Assembly (NCBI GenBank): GCA_022841825.1
Contig: JALHQT010000008.1
Span: 124,001-188,000 of the forward strand
Direction: 5' to 3'
Source of the DNA: Anaerolineae bacterium
Lineage (GTDB): Bacteria > Chloroflexota > Anaerolineae > Aggregatilineales > Phototrophicaceae
Length of the DNA: 64,000 nucleotides
In this document: positions 14,650 to 25,949 of the stretch, one piece after another
Position numbering within the stretch: position 1 is the stretch's first letter
Layout: every line of letters starts with the position of its first letter
The notes under the pieces: model-generated
The model's input: the letters and a program-made list of their open reading frames with translations, nothing else
Database searches by the model: none
Told to the model about the DNA's origin: nothing
Position numbers and translations under genes: made by a program

Positions 14650-14814
14650 ATGAACACCTGTATCGAATGTGGCGCAGAACTGAACATCCCGACGGGCGTG
14701 ATGATGGGTGAAATCCTGCCCTGCCCCGATTGTGGCGTCGAGCTGGAGGTGACCAACCTCACACCGCTGACCGTCGAGCTTGCGCCGCAGGAAATGGAAG
14801 ACTGGGGAGAGTAA
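14650..14814 (+). CDS. lysW: LysW, amino-group carrier protein
   Basis: A 54-residue carrier protein that protects and carries the amino group of alpha-aminoadipate during lysine synthesis. It shows CIEC and CPDC zinc-binding pairs (Cys4, Cys7, Cys25, Cys28) and ends in the invariant EDWGE, whose final Glu54 gamma-carboxyl is joined to the substrate. The start ATG at 14650 has AAGGAGCTGAGG upstream. The gene is too short for many gene finders. It is first in the operon, with lysX starting 2 nt after its stop. The presence of LysW shows that the following ArgC-, ArgB- and ArgD-like genes act on LysW-bound substrates. Confidence 0.96.
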
Positions 14815-14816
14815 TC

Positions 14817-15683
14817 GTGAAGATCGCCATCCTCTGTTCCCGCGTCCGCGTTGAAGAAAAGCTGCTGTTCGAGGCGTTCGAGACGCTCGGTGCCCCCGCG
14901 CTGCGCATCGACGAGCGCGAGATCGCCGCCCGCATTGGCGAGTACGCGCCGCAGGTCGATCTGCTGCTCGAACGCAGCATCAGCGCCAGCGCCGGGCTGG
15001 TCGCCTTGCAGTTGTTCGAGGCGGCGGGTGTGACTACTCTCAACACCCATCGCACGTCCGAGACCTGCGCCGACAAAATCCGCACCTCCATCGCGCTTGC
15101 CCGCGCGGGGGTTGACCAGCCGCGCACCGAAATCGCCTTCAGCACGGACGCCGCCATCGAGGCAATCGAACGCATCGGCTACCCGGTCGTCATGAAGCCA
15201 CCCGTCGGCTCGTGGGGGCGTCTGCTGGCGCGCATCAATGACCGCGACGCGGCGGAGGCAGTGCTGGAGCACAAAGAAGTCCTGGGCGGCGTCGGTCACA
15301 ACATCTACTACATCCAGGAATTTATCGAGAAGCCGCAGCGCGACATTCGTGCCTTCGTCATCGGCAGCGAGACGATCTGCGCCATCTATCGCACGTCGCC
15401 CCACTGGATCACCAACACCGCGCGCGGCGGCGTGGCAACCAACTGCCCCGTCACCGACGAAATCACGGACATCTGCCGTCGCGCAGCGCTGGCGGTCAGC
15501 GGCGGCGAGGGCGGCATCCTGGCGCTCGATCTGTTTGAAGCGCCGGATGGTCGCCTGCTGGTGTGCGAGGTCAATCACACGATGGAATTCCGCAACAGCA
15601 TCACGACCACTGGCGTCAATATCCCTGAACGGATGGCGCGCTACGCCCTCGAACAGGCAGAAGCACGCGCGGTGCGTGTATGA
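14817..15683 (+). CDS. lysX: LysX, LysW-alpha-aminoadipate ligase (ATP-grasp)
   Basis: RimK-type ATP-grasp ligase, 288 aa, joining alpha-aminoadipate to the C-terminal Glu of LysW using ATP. It starts with GTG at 14817 ([14 protein letters not shown]), 2 nt after lysW; longer upstream readings overlap lysW. Visible ATP-grasp elements: [18 protein letters not shown] near residue 122, [20 protein letters not shown] near 163, [14 protein letters not shown] near 193, and the metal-binding [12 protein letters not shown] near 250-262. The NSITTTG sequence near the end resembles the SI-TTG signature that, to my knowledge, separates aminoadipate-specific LysX from glutamate-specific ArgX (GF-ATG), favouring a lysine role. 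Its last four bases overlap lysY. Confidence 0.93.
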
Positions 15684-16723
15684 GCGTGCGCGTCGGCATC
15701 GTCGGCGGCACAGGCTACGGCGCAGGCGAACTGCTGCGCCTCCTGGTCGATCATCCAGAGGTCGAGGTGACGCAGATCATCTCATCGAGCCAGGCAGGGG
15801 CATTCGCCCATGCGATGCATCCGCATTTGCGCGGACGAACGCTGCCGCGCTTCATATCGCCTGATGCGCTAGCGGACTGCGATGTCCTCTTCCTGGCGCA
15901 GCCGCATGGCGAGGCGCAGGGACACATCGCGGAGTACGCCGCGCGCGCTGAGCGCATCATTGACCTGAGCGCCGATTTCCGCCTGCGCGATGCCGCGCAG
16001 TATACGGCGACCTACAGCGAGGCACATGCCGCCCCTGAATGGCTGGAACGCTTCGTCTATGGGCTGCCGGAACTCTACCGCGCTCAATTACTTGGCGCGC
16101 GCTACGCCAGCGGCGTCGGCTGCAACGCGACGGCGACCCTGCTCGCGTGTTATGCGCTCGTCAAGGCAGGCATGATCAACGATGCGCAGCCGCTGATCGC
16201 CGATGCCAAAGTCGGCAGCAGCGAAGCGGGGCGAACGCCGACCGACAGCAGCCATCACCCGGCGCGCGCGGGCATCGTCCGCCCGTTCGCGCTCACCGGG
16301 CATCGCCACGAGGCGGAAGTTCGCCAGGCGCTCGCCCCCTACGGGTGGTTCGATGTACGCCTCGCCGTAACGAGCGTCGAACTGGTGCGCGGCGTCGCCG
16401 TCGCAATTTATGTCTCGCTGCCTGCGGGCATGGCGGAAAAGGACATCTGGGCGGCATATCGTGCGGCATGGAACGGGCAGCCGTTCATGCGCATCGTCCA
16501 CGACAAGAGCGGCATCCATCGCCATCCCGAACCGCGACTGCTGGCGGGTACGAACTATGCCGATGTCGGCTGGGAATACGACCCGGCGACCGGGCGCGCT
16601 GCCCTGCTGTGTGCCATCGATAATCTGGGCAAAGGCGCAGCGGGCAGCGCCGTCCAGTGCATGAACCTGATGTGCGGGTTCGAGGAAACGACGGGTTTAC
16701 GATTCGGTGGGTTTTATCCGTAG
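15680..16723 (+). CDS. lysY: LysY, LysW-aminoadipyl-phosphate reductase (ArgC-like)
   Basis: NADPH-dependent reductase of the ArgC family, 347 aa, converting LysW-gamma-aminoadipyl phosphate to the semialdehyde. The Rossmann motif [13 protein letters not shown] is at residues 6-18. The catalytic cysteine is in [13 protein letters not shown] near residue 149, and the catalytic His region is [23 protein letters not shown] near 195-215. The ATG overlaps the lysX stop by 4 nt, so the two are translationally coupled. Downstream, a heptamer-bracketed spacer precedes lysZJ. Length is normal for the family, and the role is read from the LysW context; ArgC activity in arginine synthesis is the alternative. 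Confidence 0.93.
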
Positions 16724-16726
16724 AGA

Positions 16727-16839
16727 TGTGCGCAGGGCGAAGTGCGTGGTACGAAAAAGCAGGGGCACAGGCAGCAATACTCCTATGTTGTTTCGTGACG
16801 AAGCTTGTTCCCACTTCGCACCACGCACGTCGCACTCTT
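16727..16839. repeat. Heptamer-bracketed spacer (GTGCGNN/NNCGCAC), copy 3
   Basis: Left arm GTGCGCA GGGCGAA GTGCGTG GTACGAA starts 4 nt after the lysY stop. Right arm CCCACTT CGCACCA CGCACGT CGCACTC ends 24 bp before the lysZJ ATG. About 50 bp lie between them. In the lysine operon transcript this would fold into a long stem-loop between lysY and lysZJ. Confidence 0.85.
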
Positions 16840-16862: not shown

Positions 16863-19100
16863 ATGACAGTTTTCGTCCTTAAGGTTGGCGGCGGCGCGGG
16901 TGTGGATCATGCCGCTGTGATGAGCAATCTGGCGACGCGCATCGCGGCAGGTGAGCGCTGGGTGCTGGTGCATGGCTGTTCGGCGGAGGCAGATCGCATC
17001 GCGTCCGAAGCGGGCTACCCCTCACGCACGATCACCACGCAGGGCGGGCACACCAGCCGCTACACCGATGCGCGCATGATCGGCTACTTTTGCGAGGCGG
17101 CAGCCAACGTCAACCGCGCGCTCTCGGCGCAGCTCGAAGCAGCCGGGGCGCGCCTGCGCCGCTTCGAGACTCCGGCAGTCGTCCGTGCGACCCGCCATGC
17201 AGCGATCCGCGCGCTCGTCAACGGGCGTCCGGTCGTCATTCGCGATGATTACACCGGCACGATCAGCGGGGTCGATGGCGAGACGCTGCGCGCGGCGCTC
17301 GACGCGGGTGATACGCCCGTCGTCGCCCCGGTCGCCTGCGGGAACGAAGGCGAGGCGCTGAATGTCGATGGCGATCTGGTCGCGGCGACCATCGCGCGCG
17401 CGCTGAGTGCCGACGCACTCGTCATCCTGAGTAACGTGCCGGGACTGCTGCGCGATGCGAGCGACCCGTCGTCGCTGGTCACACACTTCAGCCGCGCCGA
17501 CCTGCCCAAACATGAGCTGCTGGCGCAGGGGCGTATGAAGAAGAAGCTGATGGCGGCGGCACAGGCAGGCGATGCGACCGTCATCCTGGCGGATTCGCGC
17601 ATCCCCCAGCCGCTCGATGCAGCGTTAGCGGGCGGCGGCACCCACATTGGCGAACCGATCAGCATTCCAACGGCGGTTGTAGGGACGCCATTGATGGCGT
17701 CCGCCGATTCCTCGACCGTCGGGACGCGCAACGGTGCGTCCAACGCGACCGACACGCCAGGAGGAGCGATGCATGCCCCGCCCGCCGAGCGCGGCACGAT
17801 AACACCGGACGCCGCCACAAATACGGACGCCATGCATGGCGTCCCAACACCCGGTCTTCTCGTTCCTCGCGCCTTCGCGGTTCACTCCGGCCCATCCAAC
17901 GCTGCCGCGCTAGAAGACACACACGCGGCAGGTGTCTACCTCAAGCGCGACATCACCATCGTGCGCGGCGAGGGCGCGACTCTTTGGGATGACGCGGGCA
18001 ATCGCTACATCGACTGCGTCGGCGGGCAGGGATCGGCGAACCTGGGACACTGCCACCCGGCTATCGTCGCTGCCATCCGCGCGCAAAGCGAGACGCTCCT
18101 CACCTGCCCGGAACTCTTCCACAATCCTGTGCGCGCCGAATATCAGGCGGCGCTTTGCGCGGCGGCGGGCATGGCGCGCGTCTTCCTGTGCAACAGCGGC
18201 ACCGAGGCGAACGAGGCGGCGCTCAAATTCGCCCGCATCCTGACAGGGCGCACAGGCATCGTGGCGACCATGCGCGGCTTTCACGGGCGCACGATGGGAT
18301 CGCTCAGCGCGACGTGGGAGAAGGCGTACCGTGAGCCGTTCGCGCCGCTCGTCCCCGGCTTCACACATGTACCCTACAACAACAGCGACAAGCTCGCTGA
18401 AGCAGTCACCGACCAGACCGCCGCCGTGATCCTGGAAGTTGTGCAGGGCGAAGGCGGCGTGCATCCGGCGCAGGAGGGCTACCTACAAGCCGCACAGGCG
18501 CTCTGCCGCCAGCGCGGCGCACTGCTCATCATCGACGAGGTGCAGACGGGTTTTGGGCGCACGGGCTATCTCTTTGCGCATCAGCACGACGGCATCCAGC
18601 CAGACCTGCTGTGCGTCGCCAAGAGCATGGCGGGCGGCGTGCCGATGGGCGCGGTGCTGATCGCGGAGCATCTGCCCGCGCTGACGCCTGCCGCACATGG
18701 CAGCACGTTTGGCGGCAATCCGCTGGCGTGCGCGGCGGGATTGGCGGCGCTGCGGGTGTTGACCGCCACGTCCGGCGGGTCGGCAGCGGACGCCATAAAT
18801 GGCGTCCCTGCGGGCGATCTCGTGCTGCGCGCGCGCGCGATGGGCGCGCGGGCGTTCGACTACCTTCGAGCGAACGTGCCAGGTAGCGCGGTGCGTGAGG
18901 TGCGCGGGCGCGGGCTGATGATCGGTGTCGAGCTGCGCGGCAAAGTCGCGCCGGTGCTCAAGGCGCTGCAAGCGCGCGGCGTGCTGGCGCTGCCTGCGGG
19001 GGCATCCGTGCTGCGCCTGCTGCCGCCGCTGGTCATCGAAGAGTCGGATTTGATGCGCGCACTGGAAATAGTCGCGAAAGTTCTGGAAGAAGCGAATTAG
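16863..19100 (+). CDS. lysZJ: LysZ-LysJ fusion: LysW-aminoadipate kinase plus aminotransferase
   Basis: One 745-aa frame holds two enzymes normally encoded separately. Residues 1-262 are an amino-acid kinase (ArgB-like): VFVLKVGGGAGVD at the start, VLVHGCSAEADRI near 34, VNGRPVVIRDDYTG near 120, and LNVDGDLVAATIA near 165. Residues about 335-745 are an ArgD-like class III aminotransferase with LCNSGTEANEAALKFAR near 443, DEVQTGFGRTG near 557, the PLP lysine Lys587 in CVAKSMAGG, and GSTFGGNPLACAAG near 613. The roughly 70-residue linker is translated palindromic repeat DNA, and another palindrome inserts about 16 residues (SAADAINGVPAG) into the aminotransferase near 640-648. The two activities are consecutive kinase and transamination steps flanking LysY. 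Confidence 0.88.
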   Translation: MTVFVLKVGGGAGVDHAAVMSNLATRIAAGERWVLVHGCSAEADRIASEAGYPSRTITTQGGHTSRYTDARMIGYFCEAAANVNRALSAQLEAAGARLRRFETPAVVRATRHAAIRALVNGRPVVIRDDYTGTISGVDGETLRAALDAGDTPVVAPVACGNEGEALNVDGDLVAATIARALSADALVILSNVPGLLRDASDPSSLVTHFSRADLPKHELLAQGRMKKKLMAAAQAGDATVILADSRIPQPLDAALAGGGTHIGEPISIPTAVVGTPLMASADSSTVGTRNGASNATDTPGGAMHAPPAERGTITPDAATNTDAMHGVPTPGLLVPRAFAVHSGPSNAAALEDTHAAGVYLKRDITIVRGEGATLWDDAGNRYIDCVGGQGSANLGHCHPAIVAAIRAQSETLLTCPELFHNPVRAEYQAALCAAAGMARVFLCNSGTEANEAALKFARILTGRTGIVATMRGFHGRTMGSLSATWEKAYREPFAPLVPGFTHVPYNNSDKLAEAVTDQTAAVILEVVQGEGGVHPAQEGYLQAAQALCRQRGALLIIDEVQTGFGRTGYLFAHQHDGIQPDLLCVAKSMAGGVPMGAVLIAEHLPALTPAAHGSTFGGNPLACAAGLAALRVLTATSGGSAADAINGVPAGDLVLRARAMGARAFDYLRANVPGSAVREVRGRGLMIGVELRGKVAPVLKALQARGVLALPAGASVLRLLPPLVIEESDLMRALEIVAKVLEEAN
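17683..17702. repeat. Coding palindrome, type A, copy 1 (lysZJ linker)
   Basis: GGACGCCATTGATGGCGTCC, a near-perfect palindrome, is preceded by GTAG and followed by GC. It is read in frame as GTPLMAS in the kinase-aminotransferase linker (about residue 274). It matches the copies at 17825, 18788, 21178 and 25930. Confidence 0.9.
17722..17741. repeat. Divergent type A palindrome in the lysZJ linker
   Basis: GGACGCGCAACGGTGCGTCC keeps the GGACGC and GCGTCC ends of the type A element with a changed centre. It lies 19 bp after copy 1 in the same linker. It could be a degenerate copy or a relative. Confidence 0.55.
17825..17844. repeat. Coding palindrome, type A, copy 2 (lysZJ linker)
   Basis: GGACGCCATGCATGGCGTCC is a perfect 20-nt palindrome in the same linker near residue 321, read as DAMHGVP, a different frame from copy 1. 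Confidence 0.9.
18788..18807. repeat. Coding palindrome, type A, copy 3 (aminotransferase domain)
   Basis: GGACGCCATAAATGGCGTCC lies in the LysJ domain, read as DAINGVP. It sits in a surface helix region after the ACAAGLAALRVL stretch, where ArgD/LysJ proteins normally have no such insert. Confidence 0.9.
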
Positions 19101-19230
19101 CAGATTAGCGAATTAGCTCAGTCGCTTTAAAGCCCATTAAATTGATAGCTCAGTGAGATAAGTGCCAAGCTCTCCAGTTGACTTTGATGCTGTCAAGCTA
19201 ATCTGCTAGTTTGCTAATCTGCTAGTTTGC
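19092..19230. repeat. Octamer-bracketed spacer (ATTAGCNN / GCTAATCT word)
   Basis: The 161-bp spacer before homocitrate synthase is bracketed by an 8-nt-period repeat. Left arm GCGAATTAGCAGATTAGCGA overlaps the lysZJ stop codon (TAG at 19098-19100). Right arm GCTAATCT GCTAGTTT GCTAATCT GCTAGTTT ends about 31 bp before the next ATG. It has the same layout as the 7-nt examples but a different unit length. Confidence 0.8.
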
Positions 19231-19261
19231 TTTTGACTCGAAAATCGTGAGAGGGGAACAA

Positions 19262-20404
19262 ATGCCATTTGACCACTTTTCAATCATCGAATCGACGCTG
19301 CGCGAAGGCGAGCAGTTCAGCACAGCGCACTTCACCACCGCGCAAAAGCTCGAGATGGCGCATCTGCTTGACGAATTCGGCGTCGAGATCATCGAAATGA
19401 CCTCACCTGTCGCGTCGCCGCAGAGTGAGGCGGACATCCGCGCGCTGACGAGCGCCGGGCTGCGCGCCCGCATCGTCACCCACATCCGTTGCAACCGCGA
19501 GGACGCCGCCCGCGCGCTCGACACAGGCGTGCATGGGCTGGACATCGTGATCGGCACCTCTCCGCAGCTCATCCAGCACAGTCACGGCAAGAGCATCCGC
19601 CAGATCATCGACCTGATGGAGGAGGTGACGAGCTGGGTGCGCACGCAGTCGCCGAACATCACACTGCGCTTCTCGACCGAGGATACCTTTCGCAGCCGCG
19701 AAGCCGACCTGCTGCGCATTTACCTCGCGGTCGCAGCGATTGGCACCGTGGATCGGCTGGGAGTGGCGGACACGGTCGGCGTGGCGACACCGCTTCAGGT
19801 CTACAACATGGTGAAGCAGCTCGTGCGGCTGACCGGGTTGGATGTCGAATTTCACGGGCATAACGACAGCGGCTGTGCCATCGCCAACGCAGCGGCGGCG
19901 CTAGAAGCGGGCGCGACGCATATCGACACGACGGTGCTCGGCATTGGTGAGCGCAATGGCATCACACCGCTCGGCGGGCTGGTCGCGCGGCTGTACACGC
20001 TGGACAAGCGCTATGTCGAAAAATATCACCTCCCGCTGCTGCCGCGAATCGACCGCATGATTGCCGACCTGTGCGAGCTGGAAATCCCGTTTAGCAACTA
20101 CATCACGGGGTCGAGCGCCTTCATCCACAAGGCAGGCATTCACGCCAAGGCGGTGCTTGCCGACCCCAACACCTACGAAATTCTGCGTCCGGAGGACTTC
20201 GGGCTGACGCGCGAGATCGCGATGGGGCACAAGCTGATGGGCTGGAACACACTCAAGGCGCGCTCAGAAACGCTGGGGTTAACTCTGACGGACGACACGC
20301 TGAAGGCGCTCACGCAGGAGGTCAAGCGCCGCGCCGACACACGCGCGCTGACGATTGAAGAGATCGACGCGCTGCTGCACGATGCGACGACGGTAGGGGC
20401 TTAG
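19262..20404 (+). CDS. lys20: Homocitrate synthase
   Basis: First enzyme of the alpha-aminoadipate pathway, condensing acetyl-CoA with 2-oxoglutarate; 380 aa, DRE-TIM barrel. The start at 19262 ([19 protein letters not shown]) has AGAGGGG just upstream; an earlier ATG at 19247 lies within that ribosome site. STLREGEQ (Arg-Glu rather than Arg-Asp) is typical of homocitrate rather than isopropylmalate synthases. The metal-binding EFHGHNDSG is near residue 199, followed by [17 protein letters not shown] and the C-terminal INKAG-like AGIHAKAV. It lacks the long regulatory domain of LeuA, as expected for Lys20-type enzymes. Feedback by lysine is typical of the family. Confidence 0.9.
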
Positions 20405-20415
20405 GAAAATCCGGT

Positions 20416-21723
20416 ATGACAACACAGCCCACCGCCTACACCTTTGCCGAAAAGGCACTCGCGCGCGCCGCCGGGGTGTCGTCGCTGCGCGCGGGCGACA
20501 TCGTGGATGTAACGCCTGACCTGATCTTCAGTCACGACAACAGCGCCGCCATCCGCAGGACATTCCTCGAAATCGGCGCGTCGCGCATCGCACGCCCCGA
20601 CCGCATCGCCATCACGCTCGACCACGCCGTCCCAGCGCCGACGACCGAACACGCGCAGAATCATGCCGAAATCCGCGCCTGGGTGCAGGAACAGGGCATC
20701 GCCCACTTCTTCGAGGTCGGGCGCGGCATCTGCCATCAGGTCATTAGCGAAGAGGCGCTCATCCTCCCCGGCGAAACGATCTTTGGCTCGGACAGCCATA
20801 CGCCCCACTTCGGTTGGCTGGGCGCGTTCGGCGCAGGGGTAGGACGTACGGAGATGGCGGCGCTGTGGGCGACCGGGACGCTGTGGTGGCGCGTTCCGGA
20901 GACGATGCGCATTACGCTCGACGGCGCGCTGCGCCCCGGCGTGACGGCGAAGGACATCGCCCTGCGCATCATCGGCGACCGCGGTGTCGAGGGTGGCGAT
21001 TACCGCGCGGTCGAATTCGCGGGCAATACCCTTTCATCGCTTTCGCTCGATGAACGCCCCGTCCTCCCCAACATGATGGCGGAGTTCGGCGCAATGAGCG
21101 CGTACATGCCGCCTGACCAGACGGTGTTTGATTATCTCGACATGCGACGGGAACAACGCGGTGGGCACGATACAAACGGACGCCATGAATGGCGTCCCTA
21201 CAGCGCGATTTATCCCGACGCCGACGCGATCTATGCCGACGAGTACCAGCTCGACGTGAGCAGACTGGAGCCGCAGATCGCCCTGCCGCACAGCCCCGCC
21301 AATGTCGTCCCACTCTCGCAGGCGGTCGGTCAGCCCGTCCAGCAGGCATTTCTCGGCACCTGCACCAATGGTCGTTACGAAGATCTGGAAGCAGCGGCGC
21401 GCGTGCTGAAAGGAAGGCACGTCCGCATCCGCTTCGTTATCAACCCCGCCAGCAGCCAGGTCATGCTCAAGGCTGCGCAGACCGGCGTGCTGGCGACGCT
21501 GATCGAGGCGGGCGCGGCGATCAACACGCCGGGCTGCGGTCCGTGTATGGGCAATCACATGGGCATCCCCGCGCCGGACGAGCAGACGATCAGCAGCGGC
21601 AATCGCAATTTCAAAGGACGGATGGGAACTGCCAGCGCAGGGATTTATCTCGCCAGCCCGTATGTGGTCGCCGCCAGCGCGCTCACCGGCTGCATTACCG
21701 ATCCAGCGGAATTTCTGGTTTAA
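20416..21723 (+). CDS. lysT: Homoaconitase large subunit
   Basis: Iron-sulfur dehydratase that, with LysU, isomerises homocitrate to homoisocitrate; 435 aa. Cluster cysteines are visible in LGTCTNGR near residue 315 and [11 protein letters not shown] near 374-384. Early motifs [17 protein letters not shown] and [25 protein letters not shown] fit the IPMI/homoaconitase family. Between FDYLDMR and [15 protein letters not shown] is an insert of roughly 16 residues ([16 protein letters not shown]) produced by a type A palindrome at 21178; it lies between conserved blocks and is probably surface-exposed. It follows homocitrate synthase by 11 bp and precedes lysU by 12 bp. Confidence 0.92.
21178..21197. 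repeat. Coding palindrome, type A, copy 4 (homoaconitase)
   Basis: GGACGCCATGAATGGCGTCC, followed by CTACAG, is read as GRHEWRPY inside LysT. This is the third reading frame used by the element. The same wording with CTACAG follows copy 5 at 25930. Confidence 0.9.
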
Positions 21724-21735
21724 GGAGCTTTCGAC

Positions 21736-22227
21736 ATGTCAACCCATCGCGTCTGGGTCTACGGCGACAACGTCAATACCGATGTCATCTTCCCTGGTAA
21801 GTACACCTATACCTTGAAGGCGAAGGAAGAGATCGCCTCGAAAGCCCTCGAAGATCTCGATCCGACCTTTGCCGCCAGTGTCCTGCCGGGTGATGTGATC
21901 ATCGCCGGGCGCAACTGGGGCAACGGCAGCAGCCGCGAGCAGGCGGTCACCGCGCTCAAGTTCTGCGGCGTGCGGGCGATCATCGCCGAGTCGTTTGGCG
22001 GCATCTACTTACGCAACTGCATCAACCAGGGCATCCTGCCAATCGTCTGCGCGGGCGTGCGCGAGGTCATCCGTACCGGTGAGACGGTCGAAATTGACAT
22101 CGAACAAGCGGAAGTCCGCGCGGCTGGGCAGATCTTCACCTTTCCGCGCCTGTCGCCCTCGGTACAGGCGATCTACGACGCGGGCGGGCTGGTGCCAATG
22201 CTGGCAGCACGATTTCAGACGACATAG
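21736..22227 (+). CDS. lysU: Homoaconitase small subunit
   Basis: Swivel-domain subunit of homoaconitase, 163 aa, completing the LysTU enzyme. It begins THRVWVYGDNVNTDVIFPGKY and has the substrate-binding loop GRNWGNGSSREQAV near residues 56-69, where isopropylmalate isomerases have NFGxGSSREHA. FGGIYLRNCINQGILPI near 95 is characteristic of this subunit. A ribosome site AAGGAG lies upstream of the ATG. The next gene starts 78 bp later and is not part of the pathway. Confidence 0.93.
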   Translation: MSTHRVWVYGDNVNTDVIFPGKYTYTLKAKEEIASKALEDLDPTFAASVLPGDVIIAGRNWGNGSSREQAVTALKFCGVRAIIAESFGGIYLRNCINQGILPIVCAGVREVIRTGETVEIDIEQAEVRAAGQIFTFPRLSPSVQAIYDAGGLVPMLAARFQTT

Positions 22228-24980: not shown

Positions 24981-25940
24981 ATGACAATCATCACCCTCAT
25001 CCCCGGCGACGGCATCGGGCAAGAAGTCGTCCCCGCCGCCGCGCGCGTCCTCGAAGCGTTCGCCCTGCCGCTGACGCTACAGTATGCCGATGCGGGCTGG
25101 GCGACCTTTCAACAGGGCGGCGATGCGCTGCCACCCAGTACGCTGGCGCTCTGCGAAGCGAGCGACGCCATCCTCTTCGGCGCGACACAATCGCCGATGG
25201 ACAAGGTCGCAGGCTACCGCAGCCCAATCCTCGCGCTGCGCAAGCGCTTTGACCTGTTCGCCAATCTGCGCCCTGCCCGCGCAGGCGACATCGACCTGCT
25301 GATCGTGCGCGAAAACACCGAAGGGCTGTACAGCGGGCGCGAGCGCGTCGAGGACGACGGCGCGACTGCCATCGCCGAGCGCGTCATCACGCGCCGCGCC
25401 TCCGAGCGCATTGTCCGCGCCGCCTGTGAGCAGGCGCTGCTGCGCCGCCACAAGCTGACGATCGTCCACAAGGCGAATGTGCTGAAAGAGACCTGCGGGC
25501 TGTTCCGCCGCGTCGCGTTTGAAGTCACGGCGGGTTATGCCGATCTTGAGGTGGAGGAGATGCTGGTCGATACAGCGGCGATGCGGCTCGTGCAAGACCC
25601 GGCGCGCTTCGACGTGATCGTGACGACCAACTTGTTCGGCGACATCCTGAGCGATCTCGCCGCCGGGCTGACAGGCGGGTTGGGCATCGCGCCCAGCGCC
25701 AATCTCGGCATTGGGCGCCCCGCCGTCTTCGAGCCAGTGCATGGCAGCGCGCCGGACATCGCGGGCAAGGGCATCGCCGACCCGCGCGCAGCGCTCCTCA
25801 GCACTGCCATGCTGCTCGAATTCCTGGGATATCGAGCCGAAGCACAGACGCTCACCAACGCCTGCTATGGAATAGCACACATGGGAAGCACGGCAGCAAC
25901 GACCGATGAGATCATCCGAATACTTCAGCGGATGCCATGA
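24981..25940 (+). CDS. hicdh: Homoisocitrate dehydrogenase
   Basis: NAD-dependent beta-decarboxylating dehydrogenase, 319 aa, forming 2-oxoadipate. Family elements: [15 protein letters not shown] at residues 3-17, the substrate Arg segment [18 protein letters not shown] near 82-98, [12 protein letters not shown] near 112, [16 protein letters not shown] near 162, and [19 protein letters not shown] near 212-230, with [14 protein letters not shown] near 255. Isopropylmalate or isocitrate dehydrogenase are alternatives by family; position next to homoaconitase and LysK decides for homoisocitrate. Its last codons and TGA stop (25938-25940) lie inside a type A palindrome, so the C-terminus may have been trimmed or changed by the repeat. 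Confidence 0.9.
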
Positions 25941-25949
25941 ATGGCGTCC
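25930..25949. repeat. Palindrome, type A, copy 5, spanning the hicdh stop
   Basis: GGATGCCATGAATGGCGTCC followed by CTACAGG. The TGA within it is the stop codon of homoisocitrate dehydrogenase. Confidence 0.85.

Follow-up and report, generated by a model that had tools for sequence, protein, structure and literature searches.

How two enzymes of one biosynthetic pathway come to be encoded in a single uninterrupted frame is the question raised by an open reading frame (ORF) of 745 amino acids (aa) in an Anaerolineae bacterium (assembly GCA_022841825.1; 5.9 Mb in 21 contigs, completeness 95.67%). The ORF lies at 16863-19100 on the plus strand of a 64,000-nucleotide (nt) stretch of contig 8, which will be called the window; it begins with ATG, contains no internal stop codons, and joins a LysZ-type kinase to a LysJ-type aminotransferase. 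We propose, with a probability of roughly 0.65, that this is a lineage-specific fusion which arose by the insertion of GTAG-tagged repetitive extragenic palindromes (REPs) and at least one other palindrome at a tight or overlapping lysZ/lysJ junction.

An earlier note, made from the letters of the window alone, had described a kinase and an aminotransferase in a single 745-aa frame, and both domains were recovered with Pfam (AA_kinase at aa 3-236, Aminotran_3 at aa 364-741) and NCBIfam. With NF010659, which models [LysW]-aminoadipate kinases, the kinase part (aa 1-262; 16863-17648) scores 247.3 bits (cut-off 223). The aminotransferase part (aa 346-745; 17898-19097) passes TIGR00707, the model for ArgD-type transaminases of the argD subfamily (422.3 bits; cut-off 410.05), and falls short of the LysJ equivalog model NF042418 (432.8 bits; cut-off 700). 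Between these conserved parts lies a linker of 83 residues or 249 nt (aa 263-345; 17649-17897), which is longer than the approximately 70 residues given earlier.

The linker contains four recognizable repeat units. REP unit 1 (17679-17702, plus strand) carries the GTAG tag and is read as VGTPLMAS. It is followed by a related, degenerate unit (17718-17741, plus strand) with a GTCG tag, a 6-bp GGACGC/GCGTCC stem and an 8-nt loop, which was found by eye and escaped a hairpin scan set to stems of at least 7. REP unit 2 (17825-17848, minus strand) has a degenerate tag, CAAC, and is read as TDAMHGVPT. These three units are the two "type A" palindromes and the related one of the earlier note; to them are now added a third copy inside lysJ, at 18788-18807, and, at 17868-17882 on the plus strand of the linker, CGCGCCTTCGCGGTT, which is an arm of a different palindrome. 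Together the four linker units account for about 87 of the 249 nt (~35%), so that several dispersed units are indeed present but the description of the linker as made of palindromic repeats was overstated. Between REP units 1 and 2 there is also a Shine-Dalgarno-like hexamer, AGGAGG (17759-17764), followed by an in-frame ATG (17769-17771; M303), both on the plus strand.

The palindrome, GGACGCCATNNATGGCGTCC, consists of a 9-bp stem and a 2-nt loop. In the window it was found at five sites with three or fewer mismatches where 0.06 were expected, and in the whole genome at 101 sites with one mismatch or none, compared with none for the reversed control. Seventy-nine copies were examined in context, from 597 kb that was read throughout and from the loci around exact sites among the matches listed. 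Of these 79 copies, 68 carry the tag, read as GTAG or, where it lies on the opposite side, as CTAC, on exactly one side; none is tagged on both sides and 11 are tagged on neither. Nineteen close pairs of copies, spaced 30-50 nt apart, were observed, and in the pairs that were read the tags face inwards. The tag is not restricted to one stem, as 75 GTAG-tagged hairpins with several stems were found in the 597 kb compared with 5-8 for four permuted tags. The distribution of the tagged pattern is patchy: it occurs in 10 of 98 genomes of the family, this one included, in two genera, with 92 matches in this genome.

GTAG-tagged REPs are described as elements of 20-40 nt with a stem of 6-13 bp and usually a short loop (PMC3733652). 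The palindrome studied here belongs to this superfamily by its tag, stem and loop size, copy number and inverted pairs, membership being judged by anatomy. It shares with the elements of Di Nocera et al. 2013, as far as the available part of that account goes, an unpaired terminal GTAG on one side, the 9-bp stem, the 2-nt loop, high copy number, inverted dimers and copies within ORFs. It differs in that the word "fusion" is absent from the main text of that account and in that a transposase was not found beside the GGACGCCATNNATGGCGTCC stem here. REPs have been linked to REP-associated tyrosine transposases (RAYTs) (PMC3116915, in the part available). Five Y1_Tnp matches were found in the genome and GGACGCCATNNATGGCGTCC is absent from their ~1.5-kb flanks, so the palindrome does not appear as a RAYT-mobilized REP (REPtron) in this assembly, whose 95.67% completeness means that one may be missing. 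One of the five, a Y1 transposase gene on contig 5 (L073; 163101-163445), lies between GTAG-tagged hairpins of other stems and is a candidate RAYT.

The comparison of gene order and stop codons in relatives that the earlier note had called for was made on two overlapping sets. None of 25 junctions was fused in the first set and none of 47 in the second, which also reaches to more distant loci, many of which (~25-45% kinase identity) may be ArgB-ArgD pairs. In this second set L201 gave no line, lysZ follows lysJ in L232 and L233, and the two genes are ~700-790 nt apart in L261, L262 and L276. The overlap of the sets shows in that L056 repeats L024 and that L191 lies on a contig equal in length to the G033 contig. 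No long lysZ frame was found in 83 other genomes of the family (E <=2.5e-43), the maximum being 356 aa compared with 752 aa in this genome; among the 83, neither G066, which matches only to residue 210, nor G108, which ends near a contig edge, tests the junction. A sample of the phylum yielded 20 genomes with long lysJ frames among the matches listed, none of them fused to lysZ. The earlier note had named, as a case that would refute a role for the repeats, distant relatives in which the two enzymes are fused through a linker of unrelated sequence; this was also looked for and was not found among the matches listed. The LysZ-LysJ fusion appears to be lineage-specific and was found only in its own genome among those examined. 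Two genomes (G010 and G038) that first looked fused have stops between the genes and were set aside.

A different joining of lysJ was seen in the Chloroflexota family f37, where the lysJ frame runs on for ~400 aa downstream at six loci (L257, L258, L259, L260, L270 and L271). These frames are 790-856 aa long, and an M20 peptidase, probably LysK, was confirmed in the two that were scanned with Pfam (L257 and L270). As in the window, a LysJ-type enzyme is in frame with another probable enzyme of the pathway, but the partner is another one and it is joined on the opposite side.

The state from which the fusion started was examined in 39 loci, which gave 28 rows after repeated junctions were skipped and a frame offset for 26 (none for L081 and L092). 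Twenty of the 26 relatives are in frame class 1, four in class 2 and two in class 0, both of which stop before lysJ; the lysZ and lysJ frames thus differ in 24 of 26. The junction in the window is in class 0 and measures 249 nt, whereas 18 of the 26 relatives have 64 nt or less. By our reading of the start candidates, 17 of the 26 relatives seem to have overlapping or touching genes (for example L024, ATGCCTGA), 8 have a gap between them, and one (L190) is unclear. The ancestral junction was likely an overlap or near contact of genes in different frames, judging from these sequences. Since overlap or contact and differing frames prevail, a frame-changing insertion suffices, and neither a gap nor a lost stop is needed; the earlier suggestion that repeats entered a former intergenic gap and removed a stop is therefore less supported. 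Its broader proposal, that repeat insertion joined the genes, is favored by the repeats in the linker, by the unfused relatives, and by the empty sites in lysJ and hacA and the PyrD-PyrE parallel described below.

The proposed ancestral start of lysJ provides a point from which the added sequence can be measured. GGAGG-like sites precede lysJ in several relatives and M303 is therefore probably the old lysJ start. Among 3569 internal in-frame ATGs in the 597 kb only four, M303 among them, have a 6-nt Shine-Dalgarno match; matches of at least 5 nt precede 33 of these 3569 and 59 of 504 called starts. From the last LysZ codon to the M303 start there are 121 nt, compared with mostly 17-50 in tight relatives, and from the M303 start to lysJ codon 346 there are 129 nt, compared with mostly 18-57. 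Insertion at the 3' end of lysZ would thus have added roughly 70-105 nt before the lysJ start, and insertion after that start roughly 70-110 nt. The net insertions would have changed the lysZ frame, and as the added sequence is poor in stops in that frame, translation would have read on into lysJ.

The product is expected to be one polypeptide of an estimated ~78 kDa, in which two folded enzymes would be held by a disordered tether and LysJ would carry a second disordered loop made from a REP. Because AGGAGG and the in-frame ATG survive at 17759-17771, free LysJ is likely also made by internal initiation, while free LysZ would not be. It is possible, though doubtful, that the continuous frame yields mainly separate products, with LysJ made from M303 and LysZ freed by proteolysis of the linker. 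The in-frame AGGAGG and ATG, the GGAGG-like site kept before lysJ in several relatives and a predicted disordered stretch of ~76 residues are all consistent with this, but ribosomes translating lysZ meet no stop. Such an outcome is compatible with fusion by repeat insertion and would refine it.

Several observations weigh against fusion by repeat insertion. Three of the four repeat units in the linker are degenerate or partial, and only the ~87 nt noted above are recognized as repeat. One genome (G002) holds 48 tagged copies yet its lysZ-lysJ junction is unfused, and repeats or long spacers occur at the junction without fusion in G004, G010, G038, L203 and L189. In G004 (L028) lysZ has a 58-aa tail that reads across other repeats and ends in a stop overlapping the start of lysJ. 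The gap in 8 of 26 relatives does not fit an ancestral overlap. The nearest relatives are at most 64% identical over the whole LysZ part and at most 74% over LysJ, so the order of the insertions is inferred. Of the second palindrome, discussed below, the arm has only nine copies in the 597 kb and the full pattern none.

A further point against the fusion is that a shift of a single base would bring the lysZ frame to a stop within the REP 1 tag, at its TAG (17680), and a one-base error at ~17640-17680 would therefore make the fusion an artefact. In that case lysZ would end at this TAG or elsewhere in the junction, lysJ would start at M303, and an indel introduced by assembly or base calling would mimic a fusion. 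The TAG within REP tags reportedly serves as a stop codon for adjacent ORFs (PMC3733652, in the part available), and the Shine-Dalgarno sequence before M303 is perfect. We consider such an error unlikely, as REPs are translated in frame within 23 called ORFs, as the ~85-90% coverage of three long stretches by called ORFs makes it improbable that frame errors are frequent, and as the PyrD-PyrE ORF would require a separate error of its own.

REPs are also read in frame in other genes. Of the 79 copies, 34 lie wholly within ORFs, 42 between genes and 3 at gene ends; for the 23 copies in the 597 kb alone the corresponding numbers are 11, 10 and 2. The ORFs were called by our own codon-usage caller, and some of the 23 host ORFs may be spurious: a Pfam family was present in 14 of the 20 that were scanned and absent from 6. 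In two (L119 and L132) the REP is near the N-terminus and the true start may be downstream. The host families include GMP synthase, PhnI, an AMP-binding enzyme, biotin carboxylase and methionyl-tRNA formyltransferase. All 11 exact-GTAG copies in gene orientation are read in the single frame that avoids the TAG, giving VGTPFMAS-like peptides.

Two of these inserts are in conserved genes of the same operon, where relatives retain empty sites. A 15-aa in-frame insert in lysJ (18771-18815, plus strand), which contains REP unit 3 (18788-18811; degenerate tag CTGC), is missing from all 16 relatives aligned, and a 13-aa insert with a REP unit (21178-21201, minus strand) in the hacA-like gene at 20416-21723 is missing from all 10. 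With repeats in frame in conserved genes and empty sites in relatives, these two copies have the form of intragenic palindromic inserts. GMP synthase (guaA) is likewise shorter at its REP site, by 6 to 11 residues, in 13 of 13 relatives. Elsewhere in the window, a REP with one mismatch (25930-25949) overlaps the end of a called ORF (24981-25940), to which the REP loop supplies the TGA stop. At another locus, an 828-aa ORF (L072:7562-10045) matches aldehyde dehydrogenase over two stretches and contains a GTAG hairpin.

A second pair of enzymes in this genome, PyrD and PyrE, appears to have become fused by a comparable route. A 736-aa ORF on contig 3 (339885-342095; L125:2774-4984), which lies outside the 597 kb searched, contains Pfam dihydroorotate dehydrogenase followed by orotate phosphoribosyltransferase; its NCBIfam matches are all below cut-off, that to pyrE narrowly (106.5 vs 106.8). 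It holds a REP pair at aa 76-96 and another hairpin. At the junction of the two domains lies a palindrome of 66 nt with a single imperfect base, AACCGCGAAGGCGC...GCGCCTTCGCGGTT, and an arm of this palindrome recurs in the LysZ-LysJ linker as the CGCGCCTTCGCGGTT unit. Because no copy matching our pattern for the full palindrome was found in the 597 kb, calling it a repeat family rests on its arm. Both genes are present in four relatives: pyrD overlaps pyrE in another frame in G004 and G006, and stops lie between the two in G011 and G012. No clear further two-enzyme fusion was found in the eight ORFs hosting other repeats that were scanned, two of which had no family at all.

The remaining genes at the locus point to the pathway. 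Upstream of the fused ORF, NCBIfam matches were obtained for LysW (14650-14814), LysX (14817-15683) and an ArgC/LysY-type reductase (15680-16723), and downstream for homocitrate synthase (19262-20404) and two homoaconitase-type subunits (20416-21723 and 21736-22227). Given these flanking lysine-pathway genes, LysZ and LysJ are sensible names, the latter resting on operon context and not on the LysJ model. A second pair of matches to the kinase and aminotransferase halves, close together on contig 1 (243467-246010), is probably ArgB and ArgD. Other repeats also adjoin the fused ORF. An inverted-repeat element with 22-nt arms and TTCGCACCACGC-type ends (16734-16836) lies in the gap that separates lysZ from the LysY-type gene; similar ends were found at 41 sites in the 597 kb, sometimes near REPs. 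Another repeat type with 44-nt inverted arms (19090-19232) extends from the 3' end of lysJ into the gap that follows, and its sequence GCTAATCTGCTA occurs five times in the 597 kb.

LysZ and LysJ both act on LysW-bound intermediates, and in the pathway their steps do not directly follow one another, as that of LysY comes between them. The fusion could be a selected bifunctional enzyme, giving better transfer of the LysW-bound intermediate or a fixed stoichiometry, the repeat-derived peptide acting as a flexible tether; the shared carrier, the predicted disorder of the linker and the LysJ-M20 peptidase fusion in another Chloroflexota family would all be in keeping with this. We regard selection as very improbable, since the fusion is confined to its own genome among those examined and is thus not conserved, the two steps are separated by that of LysY, the internal lysJ start is retained, the linker has no codon-position bias and the number of fusions is close to that predicted by chance. 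For the same reasons the earlier suggestion that fusion aids channelling found no support.

The last two of these points are quantitative. The guanine-cytosine content at the three codon positions is 0.65/0.66/0.70 in the linker compared with 0.72/0.53/0.79 in the LysZ part and 0.73/0.50/0.80 in the LysJ part, and the flat profile of the linker is therefore unlike that of long-standing coding sequence. An open frame was present in 3405 of 20000 shuffles of the linker and in 384 of 3382 intergenic stretches of 249 nt; multiplied by one third for the correct frame, this gives a probability of ~0.04-0.06 that a REP-bearing junction is fused. With 23 unfused co-directional gaps carrying a REP in the sequence examined, about one fusion is expected among 24 REP-bearing junctions and one was observed, in a rough model that leaves out the PyrD-PyrE palindrome as one of another kind. 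Drift therefore suffices and no selection is needed; the joining of LysZ and LysJ was most likely neutral.

Structure prediction is consistent with two enzymes that keep their folds around repeat-derived sequence. The AlphaFold model of the LysZ part is of high confidence to about residue 270, and the predicted local distance difference test (pLDDT) score is below 50 for nearly all of residues 274-349 and mostly so over the linker. In the part from M303, residues 1-42 and 335-348 (303-344 and 637-650 of the fused protein) are below 50 and most of the rest is high; residues 637-650 are the REP insert and the sole internal segment of the LysJ model below this value. From these models, whose alignments were shallow (14 and 17 sequences), the repeat-derived peptide is predicted to be disordered both as tether and as LysJ loop. 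The nearest solved chains by sequence are 3wwm and 3u6u for the LysZ part and 1vef for the LysJ part, which we take to be the Thermus thermophilus enzymes. Unlike the fused protein, these are separate chains of 269 and 395 residues in which the linker and the REP loop are absent.

Repeats read in frame within genes are known (PMC3733652 and PMC2229807, in the parts available). The inserts described here resemble the Rickettsia palindromic elements and in-frame peptides of miniature inverted-repeat transposable elements in that palindromic repeats lie in frame in genes for conserved proteins, and they differ in that, according to the available part of that account, the repeat peptide is there joined to one gene (PMC2229807), whereas here repeats lie between two complete enzymes. 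In a search of one open-access library, no account was found of two complete genes being joined by REPs, nor of a LysZ-LysJ or PyrD-PyrE fusion.

The origin of bacterial gene fusions is usually inferred long afterwards, whereas here the presumed agent can still be read in the linker, unfused relatives show a likely prior state, and a second case is present within the same genome. It should be kept in mind that gene fusion need not mean channelling. We suggest tentatively, as an idea that is more likely wrong than right, that stop-poor palindromic repeats may be a recurrent gene-joining agent at tight operon junctions, yielding fused enzymes with ready-made disordered linkers and a free downstream enzyme from the retained internal start, with LysZ-LysJ and PyrD-PyrE as two early cases. 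If this is true, the insertion of repeats at tight junctions would be a concrete and testable way in which enzymes become fused, and young fusions would be worth seeking in genomes rich in REPs.

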